Made by a program: the position numbers and the translations under genes. A stretch of 47,212 nt of DNA from an uncultured marine group I thaumarchaeote (GTDB lineage Archaea; Thermoproteota; Nitrososphaeria; Nitrososphaerales; Nitrosopumilaceae): contig CABXPS010000003.1 in NCBI GenBank assembly GCA_902514095.1, positions 1 through 47,212 on the forward strand, in the 5' to 3' direction. Positions 1-7,912 of the stretch are shown here, in pieces. Below the pieces are notes generated by a model. That model was not told the origin of the DNA, did no database searches, and was given only the letters and a program-made list of their open reading frames with translations. Position 1 is the first letter of the stretch. Each line of letters opens with the position of its first letter.

Positions 1-771
1 ATTTTAAAAGAAAATTTTACAATGGATCCAGATGATCTTCAGAAAAAAATTACAAAAAATACCAAAGCAATAGTTCCTGTACATCTTTATGGAAATGTAG
101 CTTATTTAGATAGAATTTCTGAAATTGCTAAAAAATTTAACATACCAATAATAGAAGATTCAGCCCAATCACTCGGTTCTACTTTTAAGAAAAAACATAC
201 CGGAACCTTCTTTGAAATGGGATGCTTCAGTATGTATCCTGCAAAAGTAATGACTGCTGGGGAAGGTGGATTTATTGTCACAAACAATAAAAAATTTAGA
301 GACAAATTACTAATGATTAGAAATCATGGGATGGTCAAGGGATATGATACAAGAATACTTGGTCTTAATCTAAGATTACCTGAAATTAATGCAGCGATTG
401 CAACAGTACAAATGAAAAAATTACCAAAATTTTTAAAAACTAGACAAAAAAATGCAGAACTTTTATCAAAATTACTTTCAAAATTAAATCTTAATCTTCC
501 AGAAGAACGAAAAAATGAAAATGTTAACTGGTATCTCTATACCATTACCACATCAAAACGTAATATCCTTTTGAAAAAACTTAATGTAAAAGGGATAGGT
601 GCAGCCTCATATTATCCAATACCTGTACACAAAACACCATTTTACAAATCAAAAACAAAATTACCTGTAACTGATTGGGCAGCTTCGCATGTACTTTCTT
701 TACCAATTCATCCTAAAGTTACTACAAAAAATATTGAATTCATTGCCAAAACAATTTCTGGAATACTTTGA
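1..771 (+). CDS. DegT/DnrJ/EryC1/StrS-family PLP aminotransferase (5'-truncated by window)
   Basis: Family members transfer an amino group to a nucleotide-linked keto-sugar, usually for cell-surface glycan synthesis. The reading frame is open from base 1, and the residues before the first Met (ILKENFT, then MDPDDL) fit the family's interior, so the gene starts outside the window. Visible landmarks are AIVPVHLYGN, EDSAQSLGS (cofactor-binding Asp) and SMYPAKVMTAGEGG, whose Lys is the likely PLP Schiff-base residue. The C-terminal half, with YYPIPVHKTPFY and LPIHP, is typical of the family. Its stop overlaps the start of the next gene in a TTGA, which suggests translational coupling. The exact sugar substrate cannot be read from sequence. 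Confidence 0.93.
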   Translation: MLKENFTMDPDDLQKKITKNTKAIVPVHLYGNVAYLDRISEIAKKFNIPIIEDSAQSLGSTFKKKHTGTFFEMGCFSMYPAKVMTAGEGGFIVTNNKKFRDKLLMIRNHGMVKGYDTRILGLNLRLPEINAAIATVQMKKLPKFLKTRQKNAELLSKLLSKLNLNLPEERKNENVNWYLYTITTSKRNILLKKLNVKGIGAASYYPIPVHKTPFYKSKTKLPVTDWAASHVLSLPIHPKVTTKNIEFIAKTISGIL

Positions 772-1244
772 ATAAACTAGGTACTACTATTGGAAAAATT
801 TGTGAAGCACTTTTACCAATTCCTGAAGAATTCTATATTGGTAATTATAATTCGTCAATTTGTATATGTACACTTTCTAGCATCAAATTATTAAAAGAAA
901 TCAAAAATTCTAAAATTATTGATAATATTGCAGTAGTTGGACGACTGTTTACTGAAAATAAAGGAATTGATTCAATTATAAAATATGTAAATCAAAATAA
1001 AAAAATTAAAACAATTATTGTATGTGGAAAAGACGTTTGGGGTCATAAATCTGGACACTCATTATTTGAATTGCATAAAAATGGAATTGATAATAATAAT
1101 AGAATAATTAATTCAACTAGTCCTGATCCATTTCTAACAGTATCCAAATTTGAAATCAAGTATTTTCAAAAACAAATAACTCTTGTAAATTTAATTAATG
1201 AAACAGATATTGAATTAATTAATAATAAAATTCAATTAAACTAG
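768..1244 (+). CDS. Stand-alone MtrA-like corrinoid protein (tetrahydromethanopterin S-methyltransferase subunit A homologue)
   Basis: In methanogens MtrA carries the cobamide through which Mtr moves a methyl group from tetrahydromethanopterin to coenzyme M. This 158-residue protein aligns by eye with the MtrA soluble domain: YIGNYNSSICICTL near the N terminus, GRLFTENKGIDSIIKYV, IIVCGKDVWGHKSGHS, LHKNGID and FQKQITLVNLI. His93 in the GHxxG motif corresponds to the axial cobalt-ligand His of MtrA. The C-terminal membrane anchor of methanogen MtrA (about 240 residues) is absent, so the protein should be cytosolic. It starts with TTG inside the upstream aminotransferase stop. No other mtr gene is visible. 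Family membership is strong; the methyl donor and acceptor are unknown. Confidence 0.82.
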   Translation: MNKLGTTIGKICEALLPIPEEFYIGNYNSSICICTLSSIKLLKEIKNSKIIDNIAVVGRLFTENKGIDSIIKYVNQNKKIKTIIVCGKDVWGHKSGHSLFELHKNGIDNNNRIINSTSPDPFLTVSKFEIKYFQKQITLVNLINETDIELINNKIQLN

Positions 1245-1585
1245 TAACCATTTTTTTGTCTTTCATGATTAATTTGGTTTTTTCTTTTGTATTCCTCTAA
1301 GATATCATCTGGTGTTAATTTTAATTCAAGTGATGCCTGAACTACAAAATGCCATATGTCAATTAACTCTTCTCTAGCCTCATTTTGATTAAATTCAGTA
1401 GGTGTTTTCCACCATTTCCAATTAGTTGTTCTTTGTAATTCCACAGCTTCATGCATAATTGCAGTACATAATGCAGAAACTCTATTTTCTGCATCTTTTG
1501 GATATCTATCTAATTTCATTATTTCAGATAGACCTTTTTGGAGATTGAAAATTTCATCTAATCTATCTTCTGTTTTTTCTGACAT
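1241..1585 (-). CDS. dUTPase-like all-alpha NTP pyrophosphohydrolase
   Basis: This 114-residue protein resembles the dimeric dUTPase/MazG all-alpha NTP-PPase superfamily, which hydrolyses dUTP or related nucleotides to the monophosphate plus pyrophosphate. The metal-binding pattern is visible as E46xxE49 and E72-E73xxD76 (EELIDIWHF), followed by the LTPDDILEEY helix and a KNQINHERQKNGY tail that matches dUTPase C-terminal sequence. It is convergent with the MtrA-like gene and overlaps its last 4 bases. It starts with ATG and lies about 40 nt downstream of the PfkB kinase gene, on the same strand. dUTP is the favoured substrate from the tail motif, but other NTPs cannot be excluded. Confidence 0.8.
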   Translation of the reverse strand: MSEKTEDRLDEIFNLQKGLSEIMKLDRYPKDAENRVSALCTAIMHEAVELQRTTNWKWWKTPTEFNQNEAREELIDIWHFVVQASLELKLTPDDILEEYKRKNQINHERQKNGY

Positions 1586-2981: not shown

Positions 2982-3112
2982 GACTAGTTATCAGAAAATT
3001 TTCTTTTAAGCTAAAATTAAAAAAATACTAATAATTTGTGTAAATTTTTTGATTTAATCTTAAATCTCATTAGAGCTATCTCAATAAATCAAAATTAACT
3101 TAATAATTCTCA

Positions 3113-3586
3113 TTGGCACGAATTAAACTCAAAATAGGTGAGAATGAACTTGAAGTTGATTCTAGAGATTTTTATGTTGATAATCAGACATTAGGTGAAA
3201 TAATTGATAACATTTCTCAATACATGCCAGAAAATCAAGCAAAAATTGTTTATGAATCTGATTCTAAACAAATTTCAAATAAAATGGATCATGTTTTAGA
3301 ATCTTTAGATGATGCAGAAACATTTGAACCTGAATTTAATGAACCAATACATATCCAAACTAGTGAAATTATATCAAAACTAAAAATTTTAGAAACTAGC
3401 AAGTTTTTTGATTTACCAAGATCAGTTGGTGAAACTGTTCAACAACTTAGAGAATATGGTTGGGCTACAAGTACACTTGATGTTTCAAAAGCCTTAGCAA
3501 AAATGTCTTTAAATAAAAAATTCACCAAAGTTTCTACTGAAAATCAAATTCGTTATTCAATTGAACAATTACCATTATCTAGTTGA
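3113..3586 (+). CDS. Conserved-looking hypothetical protein
   Basis: A 157-residue soluble protein with a TTG start. It has an acidic first half (IGENELEVDSRDFYVDNQTLGEIIDNI) and a helical C-terminal half. The region around residues 85-125 (SEIISKLKILETSKFFDLPRS) reads like a winged-helix-type segment, but I cannot name a family. There are no signal peptide, transmembrane or cysteine motifs. The 3' end overlaps the zinc-ribbon gene on the opposite strand by 12 bases. Codon and base use match the neighbours, so it is a normal resident gene. Confidence 0.68.
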   Translation: MARIKLKIGENELEVDSRDFYVDNQTLGEIIDNISQYMPENQAKIVYESDSKQISNKMDHVLESLDDAETFEPEFNEPIHIQTSEIISKLKILETSKFFDLPRSVGETVQQLREYGWATSTLDVSKALAKMSLNKKFTKVSTENQIRYSIEQLPLSS

Positions 3587-3769
3587 AGAATAATTACATT
3601 TTAAGCAATCAGAAAAAATTTCACCGTCTAAATGATCAAAATGCGTATTACACTGTTGACATGTGTGATGCATATCAAAATATCCATCATTTTCTGTAAT
3701 TCCTATCTTATTTGATTCAAGATTTGTGCTTTTACACTTTATACAATGACAACCACATTCTATTTTCAT
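3575..3769 (-). CDS. Small zinc-ribbon protein (64 aa)
   Basis: A short Cys-rich protein. Its ligands come as CGCHCIKC near the N terminus, then CQQC and CLKC, plus several His (MHHTC, HFDH), enough for at least two zinc-ribbon knuckles. Such small rubredoxin-like proteins are common in thaumarchaea and are usually of unknown role, possibly nucleic-acid or partner binding. It starts with ATG and is convergent with the gene at 3113, overlapping it by 12 bases. The regular CxxC spacing argues for a real gene rather than a chance frame. Confidence 0.66.
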   Translation of the reverse strand: MKIECGCHCIKCKSTNLESNKIGITENDGYFDMHHTCQQCNTHFDHLDGEIFSDCLKCNYSSTR

Positions 3770-3817
3770 AATTTTTCTCAGATAATCTATGTATAGTTTC
3801 TGTATCTATACAAATCA

Positions 3818-7207: not shown

Positions 7208-7912
7208 CTAATCAAGTTTAGTTTGAATCATATTTTGAATTTCTTTCCAACCCAAATTTCCTTTATCTTTCCATTTTTCATAGTAAACCACATCTTTTAG
7301 ATCTAATCTTGGTAACCATTTTGCAGTTTCAAGATCTGGCTTATCTACAAATTCATTAACATATCCTAGACACAAATATGCAACAGGAACAACATGTTCC
7401 GGTAGTTCAAGAGTTTCTTTTAAAATTTCATTTGAAAGAATACTGACCCAACCTAATCCTACCCCTTCAGTTCTTGCTGATAACCATAAGTTTTGAATTG
7501 CACAACAAACACTGTATAGACCTGCTTCAGGAATACTTGATCTACCTATAACAAATGGACCAAATTTTGTTGGATCATATGTAACACAAAGATTAACCGG
7601 CGATTCTAAAATCCCTTCTAGCTTAAATGATAAATATTTTGATTTTTTTGGTTCTTCTACTATTTGTGATGAACGTTTTTTCTCTTCTTCAAATGACTCT
7701 TTTATTTTCTTTTTAGTTTCTTGATCTTTAATTAAAATGAAATTCCATGGTTGAGAAAAGCCTACAGATGGAGCATGATGTGCTGCATGAAGAATTTTTG
7801 ATAATTTTTCCTCTTCAATTGGTTTTGATATAAAATGTGATCTGACATCTCTTCTTGAATAAATTGCCTTATAGAATCCTCTTTTTTCTTCATCAGTAAA
7901 TTCATCTTTCAA
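7208..7912 (-). CDS. bluB: 5,6-dimethylbenzimidazole synthase BluB
   Basis: BluB uses reduced FMN and oxygen to turn the flavin into dimethylbenzimidazole, the lower ligand of cobalamin. The 234-residue nitroreductase-fold protein has the BluB pattern: FYKAIYSRRDVRSHF near the N terminus, AAHHAPSVGFSQPWNFILI, and VGLGWVSILSNE toward the C terminus. This differs from ordinary nitroreductases and supports the specific call. It starts with TTG. No other cobalamin synthesis gene is adjacent, but the MtrA-like corrinoid protein lies about 6 kb away. Thaumarchaea are known cobalamin producers, so this is expected. Confidence 0.9.
   Translation of the reverse strand: MKDEFTDEEKRGFYKAIYSRRDVRSHFISKPIEEEKLSKILHAAHHAPSVGFSQPWNFILIKDQETKKKIKESFEEEKKRSSQIVEEPKKSKYLSFKLEGILESPVNLCVTYDPTKFGPFVIGRSSIPEAGLYSVCCAIQNLWLSARTEGVGLGWVSILSNEILKETLELPEHVVPVAYLCLGYVNEFVDKPDLETAKWLPRLDLKDVVYYEKWKDKGNLGWKEIQNMIQTKLD

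Follow-up and report, generated by a model that had tools for sequence, protein, structure and literature searches.

The MtrA-like protein encoded close to the start of the window (the whole 47,212-nucleotide stretch of DNA that was analyzed) is kept in most ammonia-oxidizing archaea (AOA), with its cobalt-ligand site intact and its methyltransferase partner missing. Because its B12-contacting residues are conserved, the partners for methyl transfer are missing and B12 genes often lie near, it probably handles B12 and does not feed an unusual methionine synthase. We tentatively favor a role as a corrinoid carrier in B12 reduction and adenosylation, B12 activation or repair, which seems to us possible, if somewhat short of probable. 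AOA are regarded as major cobalamin producers in the ocean (PMC4303638), and the protein offers a concrete handle on how they reduce, deliver and adenosylate cobalamin in oxic cells. It would be a methanogenesis protein re-used by an aerobic lineage. Soluble MtrA homologues in non-methanogens (PMC4915002) and MtrA-MtrH pairs and fusions in other archaea (PMC9635834, PMC11291895) were already known. A search of the open-access literature yielded no description of the AOA clade.

An MtrA homologue distinct from the methanogen subunit

The TTG start codon of the MtrA-like open reading frame overlaps the TGA stop of the preceding DegT gene (Table 1). At the matching place the nearest relatives also have TTG, and others have ATG or GTG. 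A Pfam profile search gave a single match, to MtrA (PF04208; 94.5 bits, E 7e-27; curated cut-off 25 bits). A sequence search of the PDB returned six matches, all of them MtrA, among which chains of 5LAA, 8Q3V and 5L8X matched at E 1e-14 to 1e-18. The view of the preliminary description that this is a soluble MtrA homologue is thus borne out by the significant profile hit and by the PDB matches. NCBIfam likewise returned MtrA-type models only; the top one, the subfamily model NF002126, gave 153.5 bits, slightly below its cut-off of 161, and the equivalog model for true mtrA, TIGR01111, gave 83.8 bits, below its cut-off of 249. Judged from sequence, the protein is an MtrA homologue, yet no equivalent of the methanogen subunit, since it matches PF04208 and the MtrA structures but falls below the TIGR01111 cut-off.

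The protein ends at approximately MtrA position 150, where the MtrA linker starts, so it has no C-terminal membrane anchor, as had been claimed. The source genome (an assembly of 873 kb, 71% complete) contains one PF04208 gene only. Compared with its nearest relative (94% identical; 23.5 synonymous and 9.5 non-synonymous differences), dN/dS was 0.087, and the gene is under purifying selection.

Table 1. Features of the window discussed in the text
Feature	Position	Strand	Basis and remarks
DegT/DnrJ/EryC1 aminotransferase gene	22..771	+	PF01041; 5' end cut by contig edge; 4-nt overlap with MtrA-like start
Soluble MtrA-like corrinoid-type protein gene	768..1244	+	158 aa, TTG start; Pfam, NCBIfam and PDB matches, AlphaFold model
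Codons of E63-N64 (Glu54 and Asn55 of MtrA)	954..959	+	Alignment; invariant 46/46
Codon of H93 (GHxxG histidine; cobalt ligand His84 of MtrA)	1044..1046	+	Alignment with 5LAA/5L8X; invariant 46/46
MazG/dUTPase_2-like pyrophosphatase gene	1241..1585	-	PF08761, 65.8 bits; convergent with MtrA-like gene
BluB, 5,6-dimethylbenzimidazole synthase gene	7208..7912	-	TIGR02476, 237.7 bits (cut-off 150)

Conservation of the cobalt-ligand site

His84 of MtrA binds cobalt from below and is hydrogen-bonded to Glu54; Asn55, Thr53 and Gly57 contact the corrin and its tail, and MtrA also has a meander, GAIPF-Y/F-xEN (PMC4915002). Alignment with 5LAA and 5L8X placed His84 at H93 of the AOA protein, Glu54 at E63, Asn55 at N64, Thr53 at T62 and Gly57 at G66. 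The GHxxG histidine that had been proposed as the axial ligand therefore coincides with the cobalt ligand of MtrA. H93, E63, N64 and G66 were invariant in all 46 aligned AOA homologues, in which 20 positions altogether were invariant, and position 62 was Ser or Thr in nearly all of them. The tail contact Asn64 of MtrA is Tyr73 in the AOA protein, and in place of the meander consensus the AOA sequences have SPDPxLTVS, with the Pro alone nearly invariant.

An AlphaFold model built on the 46-row alignment had a pLDDT of 88.1 and a pTM of 0.82. When it was used in a structure search, seven PDB chains were retrieved at E <0.001, all of them MtrA, with TM scores of 0.76-0.80; the best match was 5L8X (TM 0.80, rmsd 1.8 Å). 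Conservation of the ligand residues together with the predicted MtrA fold makes it likely that the protein binds a corrinoid.

Distribution and ancestry

A public genome collection, scanned once, yielded 178 confirmed relatives. Of 300 genomes sampled from the phylum, 66 had the gene above the cut-off, among them almost every genome sampled from three families: f1, which is Nitrosopumilaceae according to named records, and f2 and f3, which were assigned to Nitrosocaldaceae and Nitrososphaeraceae, respectively, from gene content and genome size. The order-wide sample placed the gene in these three families and in f56, and those genomes listed as lacking it that lie outside f1 belong to other families. 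Families f63 and f64 of the same sample have a longer, distinct MtrA-like form. This protein (L215:5610-6368, L216:1202-1972) has approximately 255 residues, keeps the His, carries a C-terminal extension and groups with non-AOA forms. In the tree, the AOA proteins formed one clade (support 99/98) whose branching matches the families, so the simplest history suggested by the sequences is a single ancestral AOA copy that was vertically inherited.

Within Nitrosopumilaceae, 133 of the 160 genomes of the family-wide sample matched, two pseudogenes counted in, and the gene was absent from genera g7, g9, g129, g130, g132 and g134 of that sample. Decayed copies were seen in two genomes of the genus Nitrosopumilus, G299 (11 stops; L233 about 3372-3773) and G374 (L234 about 3055-3518), in both cases between intact DegT and MazG genes. 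The gene has been lost in some B12-using and in genome-reduced lineages; its loss from the former indicates that it is unnecessary for B12 use as such.

Methionine synthases and methyl-loading enzymes

It had been suggested that the protein supplies a folate-independent methionine synthase of the core MetE type, a pairing that would resemble the one predicted for MesA and MtrA in methanogens (PMC7857596). However, the MetE catalytic domain (PF01717) was absent from the source genome (71% complete), from all 43 Nitrosopumilaceae and from all three Nitrososphaeraceae-like genomes searched. Among AOA it was confined to the Nitrosocaldaceae-like family f2, so that MetE does not accompany the gene wherever the gene occurs. 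The absence of PF01717 refutes a core-type partner for the Nitrosopumilaceae lineage, and we give this proposal virtually no credence.

AOA except Nitrosocaldus use a cobalamin-dependent methionine synthase (PMC5817080, PMC4303638). A B12-independent enzyme was reported for sediment and NP-alpha clades (PMC8397731), but this report was not reproduced by our PF01717 search in the genomes sampled. The MetH homocysteine domain showed the reverse of the PF01717 pattern, being present in 47 of 50 AOA genomes and missing only from f2. In the source genome the MetH pair is complete: the homocysteine subunit has 320 aa, and its 837-aa partner carries the pterin, cap, B12-binding and activation domains. 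That MetH serves nearly all AOA (PMC5817080, PMC4303638) would fit an auxiliary role, in which the MtrA-like protein would serve this enzyme as a cobamide supplier, store or re-activator, or as a methyl donor. MetH has B12 and activation domains of its own, however, and the two genes do not keep company: Nitrosocaldaceae-like genomes carry the MtrA-like gene with MetE and no MetH, and genomes G082 and G108 have MetH without the MtrA-like gene. These distributions disfavor the feeding of MetH, which we regard as improbable.

If the protein carried methyl groups, as all MtrA proteins studied do, an enzyme would be needed to load it. MtrH (PF02007) was found in none of 27 AOA genomes, the source genome included, whereas seven of the eight other genomes tested from the phylum that carry MtrA have it. 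None of the other Mtr subunits (B-G) was detected among the window ORFs scanned. The preliminary description was therefore correct in noting the lack of an mtr partner. Two PF00809 proteins were present in most AOA genomes tested, one DHPS-sized and the other the MetH subunit; the incomplete source assembly has one, and in f2, which lacks MetH, the DHPS-sized protein occurs alone. Neither MtrH nor a second pterin methyltransferase was found by the PF02007 and PF00809 searches, and both were rejected as loaders. With MtrH absent and PF00809 reduced to the DHPS-sized protein, no known enzyme is left for pterin methyl loading, at least in f2.

These findings weigh against the main rival to a carrier role in B12 activation, namely a methyl-corrinoid shuttle whose Co(I) form would move a methyl group from an unrecognised donor to an equally unrecognised acceptor, such as a thiol. 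Such a shuttle is consistent with the invariance of the axial His-Glu pair, which tunes Co(I)/Co(III) chemistry (PMC4915002), and with the fact that MtrA homologues of other non-methanogens can be soluble, paired with MtrH or fused to it (PMC9635834, PMC11291895). Given what the MtrH and PF00809 searches returned, we consider it rather unlikely.

Gene neighborhood

The order DegT, MtrA-like gene and convergent MazG was invariant in all 15 Nitrosopumilaceae loci compared. CbiH lies approximately 4 kb upstream of the MtrA-like gene in each of the 14 loci that reach that far, and BluB approximately 6 kb downstream in 15 of 15. The identity of BluB and its distance in the window, as first described, were confirmed, and the presence of CbiH and BluB supports the cobalamin-related character of the neighborhood in this family. 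In Nitrosopumilaceae only these two B12 genes are near; DegT and MazG adjoin the MtrA-like gene, and CobA does not. DegT was rejected as a functional partner because it adjoins only in Nitrosopumilaceae and is absent from the other two families. The MazG/dUTPase_2-like gene is similarly placed in several Nitrososphaeraceae-like loci, and its convergence with the MtrA-like gene extends across two AOA families. An NADPH-FMN-reductase-like gene (window:6505-7032) adjoins BluB on the same strand and could supply its reduced flavin.

Outside Nitrosopumilaceae, the gene immediately preceding the MtrA-like gene, in the same orientation, belongs to the PNPOx family in 16 of 20 loci (f2, 5/6; f3, 10/13; f56, 1/1), and in locus L055 the gap is 1 nt. 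The best NCBIfam models for this neighbor were F420-dependent PPOX families, at scores below cut-off. CobA is found in 7 of 13 loci of f3, the soil-type family, where it is divergent from the PNPOx/MtrA-like pair or from the MtrA-like gene, or lies one gene away. MetK, CbiD and CbiG follow downstream in several of these, and L055 has in addition genes resembling CbiX, CbiC and CbiA/CobB. CobA was identified by profile in the L055 copy (PF02572, 198 bits); CbiD, CbiG, CbiX, CbiC and MetK were assigned by visual inspection of the sequence. The linkage of a reductase candidate and CobA is strong in Nitrososphaeraceae-like loci and partial in Nitrosocaldaceae-like ones, and is not seen in Nitrosopumilaceae.

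A PNPOx orthologue was present in 111 of the 160 Nitrosopumilaceae genomes. By genus, 11 have both PNPOx and the MtrA-like gene, 3 have the MtrA-like gene only, 6 have neither and none has PNPOx only (one-sided p 0.002, uncorrected for ancestry); the pattern stems partly from shared ancestry. Approximately 30 genomes have the MtrA-like gene but no PNPOx orthologue; the source assembly (71% complete) and G233, a single-contig genome, are among them. PNPOx is therefore not obligate, and it was rejected as an obligate partner.

A candidate corrinoid carrier

The gene linkage supports an association of PNPOx and CobA with the MtrA-like protein. In the carrier model, the stand-alone MtrA-fold protein, which would not be a subunit of the methyl-H4MPT:CoM methyltransferase, would hold a cobamide in the base-off/His-on state via H93, hydrogen-bonded to E63. 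The Co(II)-corrinoid would be presented to a flavin- or F420-type reductase, for which the PNPOx-family neighbor of the ancestral arrangement is a candidate, and would be reduced to Co(I). After reduction, the recipient of the corrinoid would be CobA, an adenosyltransferase, or a B12 enzyme. We infer corrinoid binding, the reduction of the corrinoid by PNPOx, CobA as its recipient, and every catalytic step.

The MtrA fold, the invariant H93, E63, N64 and G66, the PNPOx and CobA linkage, the nearness of CbiH and BluB and the co-occurrence with PNPOx in Nitrosopumilaceae, and the lack of methyl-loading partners argue for a carrier. CobR, a corrin reductase that depends on flavin, is known to generate Co(I) ahead of adenosylation (PMC4083273), and the proposed pairing of a flavoprotein reductase with an adenosyltransferase is analogous to CobR and CobA. 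The analogy differs in that no MtrA-type carrier is known in that system and the AOA candidate reductase belongs to the PNPOx/F420 family. Against a carrier, PNPOx is missing from many genomes that have the MtrA-like gene, DegT and MazG rather than CobA adjoin this gene in Nitrosopumilaceae, some B12-using lineages have lost it, the substrates of the PNPOx family are many, and location in a cobalamin region is circumstantial. With considerable reserve, we also put forward the joint possibility that an MtrA-type protein, inherited by AOA without its methyltransferase, came to serve as carrier in a new module for B12 activation, in which a PNPOx/F420 flavoprotein, the MtrA-like carrier and CobA would reduce and adenosylate cobamide under oxic conditions.

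The position near B12 genes, the small size of the protein and its exposed corrinoid site could also suit a protein that senses, stores or scavenges cobamide, or some other role in ligand binding kept on the MtrA fold. The gene is dispensable in genome-reduced lineages and the meander linked to energy coupling is degraded, as this would allow. Nevertheless, the protein lacks a DNA-binding or effector domain, and simple storage would not require an invariant redox-tuning His-Glu pair. We judge these roles unlikely.

Relation to known MtrA systems

The AOA protein shares its fold (TM 0.8) and the equivalents of His84, Glu54, Asn55 and Gly57 with MtrA of the methanogen Mtr complex (5L8X, 5LAA, 8Q3V, 9QTQ). 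It differs in having no membrane anchor and no MtrB-H (MtrB-G as judged among window ORFs), a mostly lost meander, Tyr at the Asn64 tail contact, and a TIGR01111 score of 83.8 against 249. Cytoplasmic MtrA homologues have been noted in methanogens and non-methanogens (PMC4915002) and, like the AOA protein, consist of the soluble cobalamin domain only, with the key His conserved. Those of methanogens are 60-97% identical to MtrA, whereas the AOA clade is approximately 30% identical (in the structural match) and has no MtrH. In Asgard archaea and others, too, an MtrA-like domain occurs outside methanogenesis, paired with MtrH or fused to it (PMC11291895, PMC9635834), but in AOA MtrH is neither a partner nor a fused domain.

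Fusions of MtrA with thymidylate synthase and DUF4346 (L103-L105, L109 and L110) also have the PF04208 domain in common with the AOA protein. Their axial His and Glu are gone, whereas the unfused AOA protein retains both. A possible thymidylate link through the MazG/dUTPase_2-like gene was set aside because the fusions that suggest it lack the cobalt ligand and AOA have no such fusion. In the fusions, the MtrA domain may have become structural or pterin-related. They occur in other archaea of the phylum, and DUF4346 was seen in L105 (L105:8913-10409).
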